In this document: one piece after another, positions 1,762 through 10,003 of the stretch
Layout of the letters: the number at the start of each line of letters is the position of its first letter
How positions within the stretch are numbered: position 1 is the stretch's first letter
DNA from: Dethiobacter sp.
GTDB lineage: Bacteria > Bacillota > Dethiobacteria > Dethiobacterales > Dethiobacteraceae
Assembly (NCBI GenBank): GCA_018333635.1
Contig: JAGXTL010000016.1
Coordinates: forward strand, 1-64,000
Length of the DNA stretch: 64,000 nt
Direction: 5' to 3'
Translations under genes and position numbers: made by a program
The notes under the pieces: model-generated
What the model was told of the DNA's origin: nothing
The model's input: only the letters and a program-made list of their open reading frames with translations
Database searches by the model: none

Positions 1762-2748
1762 CTATCCCCCAATTTCAACCATACCCCTGGGACCGCATCT
1801 TGAACCCTGCGCGGCAGGACTAGCTTCAGCGTGTTCCGGTTTTTTTTGTAAAACTTCGTAAAAAAGTGGCAGCAGATCTTCTCCTGATTTAAGTGTAGGC
1901 AACAGGTCAACTTCTTCGGCGGAAAACAAGCACGGTCTCAGTTTACCGTCACTGGTAAGACGCAGTCGGTTACACTGCGAACAAAAATGCTGGCTCACAG
2001 GAGTAATAAAACCCAATCTGCCTATGGCCTGCTGATAACGGAAGTTTCGAGCCGGTCCGCTTAAATCTTCTTGCAGCCATGGTTCCATCGGCTCTACAGC
2101 CTCACACAACGCCATAATTTCTCGCGAAGACAGATAATGCTTTTGCCATAAATCATCCTGGCCCAACATAGGCATATACTCAATGAAGCGCACATGAACA
2201 TCCCGGTCATGTGTCAGGCGAGCAAAACTTTGCACTTCGTGGTCATTGATACCTTTCATAACCACCATATTGATTTTTATCGGAGTTAGCCCTGCCGCAA
2301 AAGCAGCATCAATCCCATCAAGTGTTGCCTGAATCTTGCCTCCGCAGGTAATCTGCTCAAAGTTTCTCCCGTCTAGAGAATCCAAAGAAATGTTAACGCG
2401 CTTCAAGCCAGCTTCACGTAAAGGTTTGGCCAGCTCCGCCAACAATGTAGCGTTTGTTGTCAGACTCAAGTCCTCAATTTCTGGTATCTTGGCAATTTCC
2501 CGCACTATTTCTACAATGTCTTTGCGTACCAACGGTTCACCGCCGGTGAGACGAACTTTACGGATGCCGGCTTTCGCAGTTGCTGCCACTACTTGGACGA
2601 TTTGTTGGCGGCTCAACTGTCCTCGAACACTGCGGGGCTTGCACAAATTCCCGGGGCGGCAGTAAAAACAACGTAAATTACAGCTGTCCACCACAGAAAC
2701 GCGCAGATACTCGATCTTTCTGCCATGTGGGTCTAGCAATACTGCCAT
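1762..2748 (-). CDS. moaA: GTP 3',8-cyclase MoaA (molybdopterin biosynthesis)
   Basis: Radical-SAM enzyme for the first step of pyranopterin cofactor synthesis, GTP to 3',8-cH2GTP. The 328-residue protein has the SAM-cluster motif CNLRCFYC near residue 23, LTGGEPL, and the second cluster as CSQCNRLRLTSDGKLRPC in the C-terminal half. It ends in IGG, the glycine tail needed for MoaA function. It starts 26 bases after the sigma-54 activator gene on the same strand and belongs to the adh/aor neighbourhood. Its likely local job is supplying the metallopterin for the tungsten or molybdenum AOR. Length is typical of the family. Confidence 0.95.
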   Translation of the reverse strand: MAVLLDPHGRKIEYLRVSVVDSCNLRCFYCRPGNLCKPRSVRGQLSRQQIVQVVAATAKAGIRKVRLTGGEPLVRKDIVEIVREIAKIPEIEDLSLTTNATLLAELAKPLREAGLKRVNISLDSLDGRNFEQITCGGKIQATLDGIDAAFAAGLTPIKINMVVMKGINDHEVQSFARLTHDRDVHVRFIEYMPMLGQDDLWQKHYLSSREIMALCEAVEPMEPWLQEDLSGPARNFRYQQAIGRLGFITPVSQHFCSQCNRLRLTSDGKLRPCLFSAEEVDLLPTLKSGEDLLPLFYEVLQKKPEHAEASPAAQGSRCGPRGMVEIGG

Positions 2749-2774: not shown

Positions 2775-4643
2775 CTAGGCTTTAAGCCCTAATTCTTCGA
2801 GCTTCCTATATAGCGTAGTGCGCCCAATGCCAAGCATTCTAGCAGCCGGGGCAATTTTACCTTCTGTTTTAGCGAGAGCCTGCAAAATAGCCTGCCTAGT
2901 CTGTTGTTCTAGGAGGGAATGCTGACCGACCATCAGCTTGTCTGCACTGTGCCTTAATTCTTCAGGCAAATCATCAGCCGTTAAAAAAGAACGCTCAGCC
3001 ATAGCCACCATACTCTCGATGCAGTTTTCAAGCTCGCGGATATTACCGGGCCATTCGTACAGCATGAGATGGGTATACACCTCATCGGCAACACCCAGAG
3101 ATGGCTTACCTGCTGCTTTGCAAACCTTTTGCACAAAGTAAGGCACCAGGTCATAGATATCTTCCATCCGCTGTCGTAACGGCGGTACTTCAACCGTTAC
3201 CACTTTGAGACGGTAATAAAGGTCTAGGCGAAACTGCCCCTCATCAATCCGTGACGATAAATCCTGATTCGTGGCGGCGAGGACGCGAACATCCACCTTA
3301 CGCGAGCGGTTATCTCCGATTCTCACCACTTCCCGCTCTTGCAACACTCGCAGTAGCGAAGCCTGCACATTGTGGGGCATATCACCAATCTCGTCTAAGA
3401 GAATTGTGCCCCCTTGCGCAATTTCAAACTTGCCCGGTTGCCCACCTTTTCTAGCTCCGGTGAATGCACCTTCTGTATGCCCAAATAGTTCGCTTTCGAT
3501 GAGTGTGGCAGGAATTGCCGCACAGTTTAAGGCCACAAAAGGTCCATATGCACGGGGACTCATTTGATGAATATAGCGGGCAATAATTTCTTTGCCTGTG
3601 CCTGTTTCACCCTGTATTAAAACTGTGGAATTAGTTATAGCCGCTTTTTCAGCTCGCTTAAACACCTTTTGTGTCACATCACTGCTGCCAACCCATAACA
3701 ATTGCTCACCTGATTCACGGGGAACAGTATTCAACAAGCCCAACACACCCATAGTATAGCCGCTGGCATCAGTGACCTTTGTCATGCGAGAGATAATACT
3801 ATGCTCTTCTCTTAATTCTATATCGGAGGCATGGCCAGAAAACGACCACTGCTTGTTTCCAAATACATCTGCTGCTAGCCGACCTATAATATCACCACGT
3901 TTACGGCCAAGCAAACTGGCGCCGGCCTGGTTAATCTCAGTTACAATGCCATGGCTATTAATAGCGATAAACCCTTCACGCAGCAGCTCACCAGCCATCT
4001 CGATTCCCTGCCTGGCAAAGTGGAAACTCCGCAGCAACTCGGATAAATGAAGGTTTTGTTCGATCAGTTTAGCGCCCATGAGGACAACTTCCACAAGACG
4101 CTCTTCACCACTTCTGATTCCCGCTTCTCCGGAGATATCAATTACACCCACCACTTCACCGCGAGAGTCACAAATGGGGGCAGCCCAACAGTTGAGAAAA
4201 TGATTTTCTAGCACATAGTGCTCCCAGCCCAATATTTTCAAGGGTGCTTTTTCCACTAGCACCGTGCCGATTGCGTTTGTCCCTTTAACTTCCTCACGCC
4301 AGTTTGCGCCAGGGGAGAGATGGACCTGTTGAGCCTTGCTCATAAAAGGAGGGTCCCCCAGCGTTTCAAGCACATACCCTTCATTATCACATAGCAGGAC
4401 AATGTTATTTAGTCCTTCAAGAAACCGATATAGATATGGCAACACTGGCTTACCTGCCTGCACTAAATCCTCGTGAGCTTGACAACGCTGGAGTAGTCTT
4501 GGTGCCGGCAAAATCTCATTACTGCGAACACGCTGATAATCCACTTGCTTTTCCCTGCTACGTTGCCAAGACCGATATAGTAAAGGAGACATTTCCTGCG
4601 GCCTGGCTTCCCCGACGACAAAGCGCTGCCAAACACTGCTCAT
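2775..4643 (-). CDS. Sigma-54-dependent transcriptional activator, AcoR type
   Basis: A 622-residue bacterial enhancer-binding protein. Order of domains: N-terminal GAF-like sensor (about 60-200) with the AcoR-type [10 protein letters not shown] signature, a PAS domain (about 215-290), a AAA+ domain (about 318-550) and a Fis-type helix-turn-helix at the C-terminus ([19 protein letters not shown]). Walker A is GETGTGKE, the sigma-54 contact loop is GAFTGA and Walker B is TILLDEIGD, all intact, so it should activate sigma-54 RNA polymerase. AcoR relatives respond to acetoin or similar small metabolites; here the effector may be an alcohol or aldehyde (inference). It lies downstream of adh, aor and moaD on the same strand. 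Its likely targets are the sigma-54 promoters and paired palindromes at 8.4-8.7 kb. Confidence 0.93.
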
Positions 4644-4776
4644 AGTTGTAACTCCTCCAGCTCCGTAAGTAGTAGATGCCCTGTCAAATTGGGCGGCCGC
4701 ATTTTTGTGCGTCTACCCGCGAAAAGTGTGGACCCCTGGGTACGGCTTAGACAGAAAATCTGCCAGACTAAACATT

Positions 4777-5001
4777 TTAACCGCCTCCAACCGGCGGGAA
4801 AATAGCCAAGGTATCTCCGTCCTTAAGTGCATTGTCAACTTCAAGAGAAATCCCATTAATAAGAGTAAGCGCCAATTCCTCCTTGGGAATCTCCAGTGCT
4901 TCGGCCACTTGCAGGATAGTACTTCCCTCTGGATATTCGTGCACTTCAATTTTAAAGCGGTTGTTTCGTAGAGTAGCAAAAAGCTTCACAGTGATCTGCA
5001 T
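4777..5001 (-). CDS. moaD: MoaD/ThiS-family sulfur carrier for metallopterin synthesis
   Basis: A 74-residue ubiquitin-like protein ending in GGG, the C-terminal diglycine that is thiocarboxylated to donate sulfur to the pterin dithiolene. It has the expected ITVKLFATLR start and the GDTLAIFPPVGGG end. The ATG at 5001 has AAGAGGTGAT upstream; a GTG three codons earlier falls inside that ribosome site and is rejected. A MoaD-like gene next to aor is a common arrangement and suggests a dedicated carrier for the tungsten pterin of AOR. It follows aor after about 130 bases that include a stem-loop. Confidence 0.88.
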   Translation of the reverse strand: MQITVKLFATLRNNRFKIEVHEYPEGSTILQVAEALEIPKEELALTLINGISLEVDNALKDGDTLAIFPPVGGG

Positions 5002-5084: not shown

Positions 5085-5115
5085 GAGAAAACAGGGCCTT
5101 CCTCACGGAAAGCCC
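5085..5115 (-). terminator. Stem-loop after aor, probable terminator or attenuator
   Basis: Read on the minus strand, GGGCTTTCC pairs with GGAAGGCCC across a GTGA loop (one G-U pair) and is followed by TGTTTTCT. It lies between the aor stop and moaD. The T-run is short, so partial read-through into moaD and the activator gene is plausible. Confidence 0.55.
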
Positions 5116-5131
5116 CCTTAACATGTAGTGA

Positions 5132-6928
5132 TTATAAACCAAGTGATTTTTTCTTGTCTGCAGTGGGTACACCAGTAGCATCCCAACCACGGACTTCATA
5201 ATACTTGGGCAACAGTTGATCAAGAGGATGAACATGACCCTTGGTGGGGCCTGCTGGCATTGGCTCATCCAGAAGACGTTTGGGCAATGTGTCATCGGCT
5301 GCAGAGTAACCTTCAGCCATGTTGAAAAGACGCTCGACGTTGTATGCGCGGTCACCGGCGGCCAGCACATCTGCGGCTGTGTAGTCTACGCCTGTAGCTG
5401 CAGTCAATAAATTGGCATAGTCGTCGGCACCCAAAGCGAAGGAAGTGAAGAGACAGAGGCCGGAGCTGTCAATAGCAGCGGTGAGGTCCTGGAAAATCCT
5501 CACCCATTCTGCTTTCCCCTCTAAGGAGAAACGATCCAGCTTTTCGGGCATGCCCAGAATTTCCGGGGAAATCATGTAACCACGGACGTGGCAGCCACCA
5601 CGGTTAGAGGTAGCATACTGCAGGCCGTGGCCCATCAGACCGCGGGGGTCATACGCTGGCAGCTCAAGCTTCTTAACAGCCATGGAAAGTTCTGGCGCGC
5701 CATAAGCTTCGGTGAGACGAGCGGAACCCATGGCCAGCTTCTTCCCAAAGCCATCAGTATCACCCATTCGCTTAACCCATTCTACTACAGCTTCAGCATT
5801 GCCCCATGCCAGTTCGGGACCGCCAGCCAACTCATCAGCCTTCACATATCCGCGCTGGTAAAGTTCCATGGCAGCAGCAATGGTAGCACCAGCAGAGATG
5901 GTATCTACGCCAATTTCGTTACAAGCATTGTTAGCTTTGATAATGGCTTTCAGATCGGAGACGCCGCAGTCGCTGCCGAAGGCCCAGATTGTTTCATATT
6001 CCGGACCACCACTGCCTACGCCATCAACTTCACAGTAGCGACCGCAAGCGATCGGACAACGGTAGCAAGGATCTTTTTTCTTCAGATACTTTTCAGCAAG
6101 AGTTTCCCCGGAGATTTCATCCGCATGCGGGAAGACACCTTCCTGGAAATTGTTAGTGGGTAAAATGCCGGCTTCGTTAATAATGTTAATAAGAACAGCG
6201 GTGCCATATGCAGGCAAACCTTGTCCGGTAACACCGTTTTCCTTAATTTTACCCATAGCAGCTTTAACATGCTCTTTAAACTTGTCGACATCTGCCGCTT
6301 CCACCTTGCCGGAACCGCGAACCACAACAGCTTTAAGGTTCTTAGATCCCATAACAGCGCCAACGCCAGAGCGACCGGCTGCACGCCAGCGATCGTTCAT
6401 GATGCAAGCGATGCGGGAAAGCTGTTCGCCAGCGGTCCCAATGTTAGCAACACGGGCTTTGTGATCACCGACTTCTGACAGCAGCATGTCAGTGGTCTCG
6501 TTGGTGTTTTTGCCCCAAACATGGTCAGCGGCCTTAATTTCAACGTCACCATCTTTAATGTTGATGTAAACAGGTGTAGCGGCTTTGCCTTCTACGATCA
6601 GCATATCGTAGCCTGCGAACTTCAGTTCGGCGCCCCAGAAACCTCCGGAGTTGGAAGATGCGATAACATTGTTTAGCGGTGACTTGGTAACAACCATGTA
6701 ACGACCGCCGGTGGGGGCAGAAGTACCGGTGAGGGGACCTGTGATAAAGAAAAGCTTATTCTCCTCGGACAGTGCATCAATACCCGCCGCAATTTCGTTG
6801 GTCAGCATTTTACCGCCTAGGCCTCTGCCACCAATGAATGATTTTGATAGTTCAGCAGATAATTCTTCAGCAGCGATGACCCCAGTGGTCAGGTTGACTC
6901 TCAGAACTTTACCTAAAACAGAACCCAT
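5132..6928 (-). CDS. aor: Aldehyde:ferredoxin oxidoreductase (tungsten type)
   Basis: Cytosolic enzyme oxidising aldehydes to carboxylic acids with ferredoxin as acceptor, using a bis-pterin tungsten cofactor and one 4Fe-4S cluster. The 598-residue protein opens with the family start GSVLGKVLRVNLTTG and has GRGLGGKML, GPLTGTSAPTGGRY and the cluster cysteines in PCYRCPIACGRYC, with a final cysteine in DSSGLCLF. The frame is open 43 codons further upstream, but the ATG at 6928 has AGGAGG just before it and gives the normal family length of about 600. It follows adh by 150 bases containing a perfect stem-loop. Together the two would convert alcohol to acid and yield reduced ferredoxin, or run in reverse. 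Confidence 0.95.
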   Translation of the reverse strand: MGSVLGKVLRVNLTTGVIAAEELSAELSKSFIGGRGLGGKMLTNEIAAGIDALSEENKLFFITGPLTGTSAPTGGRYMVVTKSPLNNVIASSNSGGFWGAELKFAGYDMLIVEGKAATPVYINIKDGDVEIKAADHVWGKNTNETTDMLLSEVGDHKARVANIGTAGEQLSRIACIMNDRWRAAGRSGVGAVMGSKNLKAVVVRGSGKVEAADVDKFKEHVKAAMGKIKENGVTGQGLPAYGTAVLINIINEAGILPTNNFQEGVFPHADEISGETLAEKYLKKKDPCYRCPIACGRYCEVDGVGSGGPEYETIWAFGSDCGVSDLKAIIKANNACNEIGVDTISAGATIAAAMELYQRGYVKADELAGGPELAWGNAEAVVEWVKRMGDTDGFGKKLAMGSARLTEAYGAPELSMAVKKLELPAYDPRGLMGHGLQYATSNRGGCHVRGYMISPEILGMPEKLDRFSLEGKAEWVRIFQDLTAAIDSSGLCLFTSFALGADDYANLLTAATGVDYTAADVLAAGDRAYNVERLFNMAEGYSAADDTLPKRLLDEPMPAGPTKGHVHPLDQLLPKYYEVRGWDATGVPTADKKKSLGL

Positions 6929-7032
6929 TAAACTATTCCTCCTGTCTCTTGATGATTTTATTATACCTATATCTAATAACACAAGTAGTGTACCAGCTTT
7001 ATCAATGTTATAAACTGAACTTGAGTTAAATA

Positions 7033-7064
7033 AATCCTGATGAGTCTTCTGACTCATCAGGATT
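7033..7064 (-). terminator. Perfect 14-bp stem-loop between adh and aor
   Basis: AATCCTGATGAGTC and its exact complement flank a 4-base loop, 15 bases after the adh stop. On the minus strand it is followed by TTTATTTAA, a weak T-run. It may be a partial terminator or an mRNA-stabilising hairpin that sets different adh and aor levels. Confidence 0.6.
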
Positions 7065-7078
7065 GTAGGAACGGTGAA

Positions 7079-8227
7079 TTACATAGCACTTTTGAACATA
7101 TTGATAACATCCTCAAGTTTAGCAGTAACCGGGTTGGTAAAGCTACAAGCATCAACCATGGCGTTTTTAGCCATAACTTCGAAATCTTTTTCTTCAACGT
7201 TTAGTTGTGTTAAACCAGCGGGGATAGCGATGTCAGCGGAGAGTTGCTGAATAGCGGTAAGAGCTTTTTCAGCACCTTCACGTACGGACAAGTGGTCTAC
7301 CTTTTCGCCCATAGCTTTAGCCATATCAACAAAACGCTGCGGGTTAGAAATAAGGTTAAAACGCTGTACATGGGGCAGCAGAATGGCGTTGCATACGCCG
7401 TGGGGCAGATCATAAAATCCGCCAAGCTGATGAGCCATAGCATGTACATAACCCAAACTAGCATTATTGAAGGCCATGCCAGCAAGAAGTTGGGCGTAGG
7501 TCATGGCGTCACGGGCTTCCATGTTGTCACCATAGGCAACTGCGCTTCGCAGATACTTAGAAATCAGCTCAATGGCTTTCAGAGCACAAGCATCGGTAAC
7601 TGGCGTAGCAATAGTAGAAACATAAGCTTCAACAGCGTGTGTCAACGCATCCATGCCAGTGGCAGCAGTGAGGCCCCGGGGCATTTTTGCCATGATTTCG
7701 GGGTCGTTGATGGAAACCTGGGGAGTTACTCTCCAGTCAACAATGGCCATTTTAACTTTGGTGTCAGTGTTGGTGATAATACAAAAACGGGTTATTTCAG
7801 AAGCAGTACCGGAAGTAGTATTCACAGCAACCATGGGAGGCATGGGCTTTGAAGACTTATCGACCCCGGCGAAGTCACGAATGTTGCCGCCGTTACCAAT
7901 GACAAGACCAATGCCTTTGGCGCAGTCATGAGAACTGCCGCCGCCGAGGGAAACGATTATGTCACACTTGTTTTCCTTATAAATCTTTTCACCGTCAGCC
8001 ACATTGAGGTCAGTAGGGTTGGGGATAGCGCCGTCAAAGATAACTGACTTCACATCAGCTTCTTTCAGCAAGCCAGCAATCATGTCAGCTAACCCTAATT
8101 TACTGAGATCTTTGTCAGTAACAATCAGAGCCTTTTTAGCACCTAAAGTTCTTGCGCGATTTCCTACTTCCTTAACACAACCGGCACCCATCAAGTTCAC
8201 TGTAGGCATAAAGAAACTGTAACTCAT
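7079..8227 (-). CDS. Iron-containing alcohol dehydrogenase
   Basis: Group III NAD(P)-dependent alcohol dehydrogenase, 382 residues with the ATG at 8227, which follows GGAGGAG; the frame extends 15 codons further without a better site. The nucleotide-binding motif is GGGSSHD. The iron ligands lie in DALTHAVEAYVS and in HAMAHQLGGFYDLPHGVCNA. It interconverts primary alcohols or diols with aldehydes in the cytosol. It is the first gene of the adh-aor-moaD-activator-moaA series, and a near-consensus sigma-54 promoter lies about 155 bases before the start codon, so induction by the adjacent AcoR-type activator is likely. The exact substrate cannot be read from the sequence. Confidence 0.95.
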   Translation of the reverse strand: MSYSFFMPTVNLMGAGCVKEVGNRARTLGAKKALIVTDKDLSKLGLADMIAGLLKEADVKSVIFDGAIPNPTDLNVADGEKIYKENKCDIIVSLGGGSSHDCAKGIGLVIGNGGNIRDFAGVDKSSKPMPPMVAVNTTSGTASEITRFCIITNTDTKVKMAIVDWRVTPQVSINDPEIMAKMPRGLTAATGMDALTHAVEAYVSTIATPVTDACALKAIELISKYLRSAVAYGDNMEARDAMTYAQLLAGMAFNNASLGYVHAMAHQLGGFYDLPHGVCNAILLPHVQRFNLISNPQRFVDMAKAMGEKVDHLSVREGAEKALTAIQQLSADIAIPAGLTQLNVEEKDFEVMAKNAMVDACSFTNPVTAKLEDVINMFKSAM

Positions 8228-8392
8228 AAATAACTCCTCCTCATTTTTATATCTCTTTGTTGGGTCTGCCACAAGATTGCTTACAAAACAATGCCTTTCT
8301 TCCCACTACCCTCCTCTTCGAGGCAATCACTTTTCCGCCTTAGCATTGAATCCAAGCCCTTTTATCTTGTTAGTGTTGATACCTAGATAACT

Positions 8393-8410
8393 AGCAAGAT
8401 CCATGCCAAA
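8393..8410 (-). promoter_or_regulatory. Near-consensus sigma-54 (-24/-12) promoter for adh
   Basis: Read on the minus strand the sequence is TTGGCATGGATCTTGCT. It matches TGGCAYRNNNNTTGCW with GG and GC ten bases apart (GG at 8406-8407, GC at 8394-8395). Transcription would begin near 8382, about 155 bases before the adh ATG. The sigma-54 activator gene is four genes downstream. Confidence 0.8.
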
Positions 8411-8562
8411 TTCAGAATTGTTAGTAAATTAACTAGTGGGTAGTCTTTCAAGTAGTTTTGTTCGTTTTCACATCTTTATTTTTGATTTCTAGCCTACTTT
8501 TCGTCAACTAGTTGCCTTTCGTGGAAATTTACGAACAAACAGACTGATTAATCATAAAAAAG

Positions 8563-8612
8563 TGTCCCAATTTGGTGCATTCTATAATATCATCTTGTTC
8601 CATATTGGGGCA
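8563..8612. promoter_or_regulatory. Two similar 17-bp palindromes, probable enhancer-binding sites
   Basis: TGTCCCAATTTGGTGCA (8563-8579) and TGTTCCATATTGGGGCA (8596-8612) are imperfect palindromes of one design, with centres 33 bp apart, about three helical turns. They lie 160-200 bp upstream of the adh sigma-54 promoter and 120-155 bp upstream of a weaker sigma-54 match facing the other way. That is the usual distance for upstream activating sequences of sigma-54 activators. Confidence 0.65.
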
Positions 8613-8723
8613 GTTAAGTATCAAGCTGGGCGTAATTAATAAAATTTTTAATATTCTAAATATTTAAGTATATTATAAACTGCCATACAGAAAATTAGGT
8701 TTTCATGTATACTAGACTTATAT

Positions 8724-8739
8724 AGGGTTGGCGTTTGCA
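8724..8739 (+). promoter_or_regulatory. Possible weak sigma-54 promoter for the RdhA-like gene
   Basis: AGGGTTGGCGTTTGCA has GG (8725-8726) and GC (8737-8738) ten bases apart and a perfect TTGCA at -12, but only GG is kept at -24. Transcription would start near 8750, about 33 bases before the GTG start. The paired palindromes lie upstream at a suitable distance. Confidence 0.4.
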
Positions 8740-8782: not shown

Positions 8783-10003
8783 GTGATTCCGCGGGAGCAA
8801 TATACCACTGATAAACCGGTGTATGAGTTGAAAGAGAAACAATATAACCGTTTTCCGGTTTTTAAGCAGGCCTTTGTTACGGTGAGTGAAGAAGATACAG
8901 GCGAGCGGAGTTACATGGGTTTTCTAGCAAAAATGCAGGAAAACGCCGTAAAAAATATGATGTGCGATGTTTCAGGACGTACTATCGCCGATTATGCGCT
9001 TAACTTTGGCGCTAATACCATTAACCTGATTCTTGGTGAGTATGGTTTCCCCAACAGCCACTTTCTTAAATGGAGTCCGCTTTTTGTACCAGAGGTGCTA
9101 ACACAAAGACCGGCTGAGACGGATCGAGAAAAACTGACGGGACTGGTGAAAAGCACCGCAGAACTTTACGGCGCCGATCTAGTGGGAGTTACCGGCCTTG
9201 ATGAAAAGTGGGTTTATTCTCACGATTTGTTTAAGCCCTTTCTATTGGCAGACACAGATAAACCACAGGAAACAGAAGATGCTTTTGTCATTCCGAAGTC
9301 GATGAATACAGCGATTGTGCTGGCGGTAGCCATGAATACTGAGCTGATAGAAAAATCACCGAAAGTGGCCGGGGGTACAGCCGTAAACCTTGGTTATTCC
9401 CGGATGGGCATTCTGGCAGTTTCACTGGCGGAGTTTATCCGCTCCATGGGCTATCTAGCAATACCCTGCATGAATGACACCGCACTTAGTGTGCCACTAG
9501 CCATTGACGCTGGTCTCGGGGAATTGGGACGCCACGGACTTCTGATTACCCCGGAATTTGGCTCAAATGTGAGGCTATGCAAAGTATTGACCAATATGCC
9601 ATTGCTTCATGATCAACCGATCGATATGGGCATAACGGAGTTTTGTGCGCAGTGCCTGCTTTGTGCGCAGCATTGTCCTGCTAATGCTATTACAAGTGGG
9701 AAAGCTTCTTTTGAAGGCGTTTGTCAAAACAACAATCCGGGCATAAGGAAATGGCATGTTAAGTCATCCGATTGTCTGCATTTTTGGCAGCAAAACGGGG
9801 TCGACTGCGCAAATTGCATTGCGGTCTGTCCGTTTACTTACGGCTTTCACTGGTCACAATGCGTTGAATGTGTACGCTGCGACACAACCTATGGTTGTTC
9901 CTTGCATCTTGCCACCCACTTGCGTGAAAAATATGGGTTCATTAAAGAAGCTCGCTGGTGGGAGCGCTCCGTACAAACACCGCTGCCACGCAAGGGTCTC
10001 TAA
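8783..10003 (+). CDS. Cytosolic reductive-dehalogenase-like iron-sulfur protein
   Basis: A 406-residue protein of the RdhA superfamily (corrinoid and 4Fe-4S). The family core is clear: DAGLGELGRHGLLITPEFG, then the first ferredoxin cluster FCAQCLLCAQHCPANAI and a second cluster with CANCIAVCPF. An extra cysteine set (CVECVRC) follows. There is no twin-arginine signal and no rdhB anchor gene, so it is not an exported respiratory dehalogenase; it would act in the cytosol. Its substrate is unknown, and it need not be a halogenated compound. The GTG start follows GGAGGAG. It is transcribed away from adh and shares its regulatory region. Epoxyqueuosine reductase is a distant relative but fits less well. 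Confidence 0.8.
   Translation: MIPREQYTTDKPVYELKEKQYNRFPVFKQAFVTVSEEDTGERSYMGFLAKMQENAVKNMMCDVSGRTIADYALNFGANTINLILGEYGFPNSHFLKWSPLFVPEVLTQRPAETDREKLTGLVKSTAELYGADLVGVTGLDEKWVYSHDLFKPFLLADTDKPQETEDAFVIPKSMNTAIVLAVAMNTELIEKSPKVAGGTAVNLGYSRMGILAVSLAEFIRSMGYLAIPCMNDTALSVPLAIDAGLGELGRHGLLITPEFGSNVRLCKVLTNMPLLHDQPIDMGITEFCAQCLLCAQHCPANAITSGKASFEGVCQNNNPGIRKWHVKSSDCLHFWQQNGVDCANCIAVCPFTYGFHWSQCVECVRCDTTYGCSLHLATHLREKYGFIKEARWWERSVQTPLPRKGL

Follow-up and report, generated by a model that had tools for sequence, protein, structure and literature searches.

What controls the adh gene of a Dethiobacter sp. in which an alcohol dehydrogenase, a tungsten enzyme and a sigma-54 activator are encoded side by side? 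The stretch of DNA analysed here, hereafter the window, comprises positions 1-64,000 of contig JAGXTL010000016.1 (assembly GCA_018333635.1). The minus-strand gene order at the locus is adh, aor, moaD, the sigma-54 activator gene and moaA (Table 1). The same enzyme pair in Solidesulfovibrio fructosivorans makes ethanol during pyruvate fermentation and oxidizes ethanol with sulfate (PMC10084766). The original prediction, made on the window alone, was that a sigma-54 promoter precedes adh, that two palindromes lie upstream of it, and that the AcoR-type activator binds these and switches on adh and aor. We assessed these proposals in the genome carrying the window (G000; 2.39 Mb in 137 contigs) and across the 20 genomes of its order, Dethiobacterales, labelled G0xx (G005, G006, G008, G018 etc.).

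Table 1. Coordinates of genes and of predicted or observed elements at the adh locus (strand '.', no orientation assigned).
Feature	Position	Strand	Remarks
moaA, molybdopterin/tungstopterin synthesis	1762..2748	-	
AcoR-type sigma-54 activator gene (GAF-PAS-AAA+-Fis helix-turn-helix)	2775..4643	-	proposed palindrome binder
ThiF/MoeB-like gene remnant	4713..4775	-	20 codons; in relatives whole, 272 aa, between moaD and activator
moaD-like sulfur carrier gene	4777..5001	-	74 aa, GG at C-terminal end
Intrinsic terminator, aor/moaD gap	5093..5116	-	hairpin kept in relatives
aor, tungsten-type aldehyde ferredoxin oxidoreductase	5132..6928	-	
Decayed -24/-12-like element of aor, CTGGTACACTACTTGTG	6980..6996	-	GC of -12 changed to GT
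Terminator-like hairpin, adh/aor gap	7033..7064	-	14-bp stem, T-rich tail, -22.6 kcal/mol; also in G006
adh, iron-containing alcohol dehydrogenase	7079..8230	-	ORF extendable to GTG at 8272
Sigma-54 promoter of adh, -24/-12 elements TTGGCATGGATCTTGCT	8393..8409	-	exact consensus match; kept in three other genomes
Probable Rex operator, TTGTTAGTAAATTAACTA	8418..8435	.	agrees with consensus at 12 of 14 positions; 8 bp before -24 element
Proximal upstream activator site (predicted), TGTCCCAATTTGGTGCA	8563..8579	.	position kept in G006 and G008
Distal upstream activator site (predicted), TGTTCCATATTGGGGCA	8596..8612	.	33 bp from proximal
Soluble reductive-dehalogenase-like Fe-S protein	8783-10003		divergent from adh

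Promoter and palindromes upstream of adh

The element upstream of adh matches the -24/-12 consensus TTGGCAYGNNNNTTGCW exactly, with the GG-N10-GC core intact. A pattern search of the whole 2.39-Mb genome yields just one other exact match, C40:5219, which was rejected as a promoter, lying as it does within a 1108-aa ORF on the other strand. Only an exact match is informative here, because consensus matches with up to three mismatches are no more frequent in the window than chance would give (59 seen against approximately 73 expected). The corresponding place upstream of the adh orthologues is occupied by ATGGCACGGTCCTTGCT in G006, CTGGCACGTTTCTTGCT in G008 and ATGGCACGGTTTTTGCT in G005, each with a single mismatch. 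The promoter originally proposed is thus sustained by exactness, rarity and conservation alike, and rpoN, whose absence from the genome would have told against it, was sought and found as a single PF04552 match (E 7e-60).

The two palindromes have centres 33 bp apart and near ends 154 and 187 bp from the -24 box. Their symmetrical core, TGYNCC-N5-GGNRCA, is present at six places genome-wide, of which they account for two, and their symmetry is imperfect, in that half-site positions 3 and 4 vary and the distal site has one broken central pair. The palindrome match at C111:11555, within an ORF, was rejected as a regulatory site. When the 510-nt upstream region was put through 3000 dinucleotide shuffles, a single core site arose once, and neither two core sites nor an exact -24/-12 element arose at all. 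The rarity of the core and the shuffles bear out the earlier description of two 17-bp palindromes of one design, allowing for the imperfections mentioned.

Comparison across genomes was made with a wider pattern, TGYNYC-N5-GRNRCA, allowing one mismatch. Relative to the -24 box, palindrome pairs lie at -203/-170 in the window, -175/-144 in G006 and -199/-166 in G008, a spacing of 31-33 bp, and shuffles reproduce these three pairs in no more than 0.3% of cases. By the same comparison, the promoter is present at G005:C53 and a matching palindrome pair is absent; no palindromes lie upstream of the six aor orthologues that are not accompanied by an activator. A single site, TGTTTCAGAATGAAACA, is found at G005:C9, where the activator gene is downstream of aor. 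The search of related genomes suggested at the outset therefore located pairs in three of the four genomes that have both adh and activator.

An Rfam scan of the adh leader for riboswitches and other known RNAs gave no match up to E=1 in the window region and none over threshold at the four adh loci, and control by such an RNA was rejected.

The activator and its distribution

Four activators in which the sigma-54 AAA+ domain scores strongly are encoded in the genome. The product of the activator gene at the locus matches PF00158 (1.6e-69) and PF02954 (3e-11) and has GAFTGA in its translation, as expected of a bacterial enhancer-binding protein. A PAS domain was found; the GAF domain scores below the cut-off here and above it in a 70% orthologue (8e-10), and a structure model has an alpha/beta arrangement in the region corresponding to GAF. 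The protein thus belongs to the AcoR/DhaR-like class, with GAF then PAS as sensor, an architecture that hints at possible induction by a small molecule.

Close relatives of adh (83-89% identity) and close relatives of the activator (57-70%) occur in an identical four of the 20 genomes, a coincidence of 1 in 4845 were they independent; aor is more widespread, being present in 11 of 20 genomes of the order. In G018, where adh is absent, the activator gene is broken to fragments between moaD and moaA, and aor retains a palindrome pair with altered bases, TGTGTCAAAATGGGACA and TGTTTCAGTTTGGTGCA, plus a -24/-12 element with three mismatches. The pattern looks like that of a circuit whose parts may be decaying together.

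A wider test employed 78 aor loci from public genomes, an activator being counted if on the same strand and within 5 kb (18 loci with, 60 without). The -24/-12 sites occur at 16 of the 18 aor loci with an activator and at one of the 60 lacking it (Fisher P 1.5e-13), palindromes at 14 of the 18 and three of the 60 (Fisher P 1.7e-9), and, when loci are divided by recognition helix, palindromes at 13/16 with the type R[NTS]TLYRK, to which the window helix belongs, vs 3/17 with other helices (Fisher P 3e-4), P values that overstate independence because genomes and loci share descent. When the 18 activator-linked regions were shuffled, a mean of 0.6 palindromes was obtained against 27 seen. The predicted binding of the palindromes by the AcoR-type activator, as originally put forward, is consequently supported by genome comparison, through co-occurrence and conserved sites.

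Transcription units

Terminator-like hairpins occupy both the gap between adh and aor and that between aor and the moaD-activator-moaA group. On this evidence the promoter at 8393 would serve adh, reaching aor at best by read-through, and transcription of the activator gene and moaA probably starts elsewhere. The same two hairpins weaken the idea that all five genes form one operon in which the activator raises expression of its own gene. Of the proposal that the activator 'switches on adh-aor', then, the adh half is supported by the conserved promoter and sites, and the aor half is called into question by the intervening hairpin. An aor element of its own, -24/-12-like (TGGYA...TTGCA) with GG/GC intact and 2-3 mismatches, is found in G006, at both G005 loci and in G018; its window counterpart is decayed.

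The adh/aor gap of G008 (L123:4880-4935) contains a perfect 16-bp hairpin that is not followed by a T tail, unlike the terminator-like hairpins of the window and G006. A second aor gene in the genome (G000:C85:43682-45475, L242), with 83% identity to the first, lacks an adjoining activator, a -24/-12 site and a palindrome.

Alternative explanations

The palindromes might belong, wholly or partly, to a different protein, the hydrogenase-linked sigma-54 activator encoded at C90:97752-99977, whose promoter has upstream of it TGTCCGAATTTGGAACA (93 bp start to start), a sequence with three mismatches relative to the proximal site of the window. We consider this improbable: the conserved site of that activator is a distinct 21-mer, ACTGTYYCAAATTYGGACAGT, found also in G007 and G008; G007 has both this activator and its site yet neither adh nor the window-type activator; and the recognition helices differ, LHRSTFYEK in the hydrogenase-linked protein against IGRTTLYRK in the window. 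Service to the divergent reductive-dehalogenase-like gene, alone or with adh, through a weak -24/-12 element at 8723-8739 (+), is likewise unlikely. This element, 111 bp from the distal palindrome and in the right place and strand, combines GG-N10-GC with a perfect TTGCA, and the presence in G015 of a dehalogenase-like homologue just downstream of aor-moaD makes a functional link with AOR possible. Its three mismatches nevertheless put it among matches as frequent in the window as expected by chance, a -24/-12 site is missing from the homologues of the gene in four other genomes, of which only that in G018 has one palindrome-like match, and the paired sites are retained by adh in G006 and G008 though the dehalogenase-like gene does not adjoin it there.

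It is scarcely credible that the promoter and palindromes are both chance matches and that transcription of adh depends on the housekeeping sigma factor: the elements are rare genome-wide, shuffles hardly ever produce them, and both are conserved along with their spacing, although adh may also have a housekeeping-type promoter. We accordingly prefer control of adh through the palindromes by the activator encoded at the locus.

The hydrogenase-linked activator (L073) is a fusion protein that also contains ferredoxin-type Fe-S domains and [FeFe]-hydrogenase large-subunit domains. Its gene adjoins genes for hydrogenase-type Fe-S proteins and has the promoter TTGGCATAGTTATTGCT, the 21-mer palindrome being conserved in three genomes of the genus; the protein may sense hydrogen or redox state.

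A probable Rex box and the proposed circuit

An addition to the original picture is the sequence between the palindromes and the promoter, which resembles the Rex box consensus TTGTTAANNNNTTAACAA (PMC5367854). Rex-box matches are also present at -26 and -27 in G006 and G008, that of G008 having GTTAATATTTTAACA in common with the Rex box before the window genome's own rex gene, so that two of the three orthologues have one; no match was found in the adh region of G005. Genome-wide, matches with up to two mismatches number 16, compared to 20 in a control, and are thus not enriched. On balance we lean towards regarding 8418-8435 as an operator for Rex, the NADH/NAD sensor.

It is observed that the sites exist, that they are conserved and that they occur together with activator and adh; the circuit that would link promoter, palindromes, activator and adh is, judged from these, likely. 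RNA polymerase with sigma-54 would sit at the promoter before adh, and the activator would bind the palindromes as side-by-side dimers approximately three helical turns apart. On sensing a signal through its GAF-PAS part, the activator would loop over, its AAA+ ATPase opening the promoter so that adh is transcribed and some read-through may reach aor. When NADH is scarce, a Rex dimer probably blocks the promoter. The locus offers for study one defined promoter, two sites and a candidate protein, and, with the likely Rex box, approximately 230 bp of DNA would suffice to test the idea of two signals, substrate and redox state.

Comparison with known systems

In Clostridium beijerinckii, mutation, reporter and gel shift experiments have shown that AdhR controls adhA1/adhA2 with sigma-54 (SigL) via upstream sites, and the Rex regulon includes both genes as well (PMC7017808). 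The window resembles this system in having a sigma-54 promoter and several upstream sites before an iron-containing adh, in its GAF and PAS activator and in its probable Rex box; it differs in having two sites rather than three and in that aor, moaD and moaA are not named at the C. beijerinckii locus. AorR, predicted along with aor-moaD in Clostridium and Geosporobacter, has TGT-N10-12-ACA sites, and the sites of such sigma-54 activators are usually 100-250 bp from the promoter (PMC6615313). Here too a sigma-54 activator gene lies by aor-moaD and the inverted repeat is of the TGT-N10-12-ACA class. In the AorR-like loci read here, unlike the window, the activator is directly upstream of aor, usually with no adh adjoining. 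Moreover, the window sites are farther from the promoter, and in the activator tree the window's protein falls in a clade of six, separate from 13 AOR-adjacent activators (both 100% bootstrap). The activator of the window would act in the same way as AdhR and AorR, and may or may not belong to either orthologous group.

Some likeness extends to the NtrC-type enhancer, TGCACC-N5-GGTGCA, with which the palindromes share 17-bp symmetry and an inner CC-N5-GG, the recognition helices also being similar; the window activator, however, has no receiver domain and is of the GAF-PAS (AcoR/DhaR-like) class.

A literature search combining tungsten AOR, sigma-54 and adh gave no match. It is well supported that the type of control is one already known from clostridia (AorR, AdhR), the novelty being a Dethiobacter-lineage example whose activator falls in a clade of its own. 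The use of sigma-54 to control how alcohols and aldehydes are metabolized, described in solvent-producing Clostridium, would thereby extend to this lineage. More speculatively, and in our opinion rather doubtfully, a separate Dethiobacter-like lineage of sigma-54 activators may have taken over control of adh and tungsten aor independently of clostridial AorR/AdhR, arriving at the same palindrome type and integrating an alcohol/aldehyde signal, through the activator, with the NADH/NAD ratio, through Rex beside the -24 box.

A related activator clade (L208:11036-11070, L218:625-659, L215:215-317) has tandem TGCTCC-N5-GGARCA or similar sites, 18 bp apart, upstream of -24/-12 elements.
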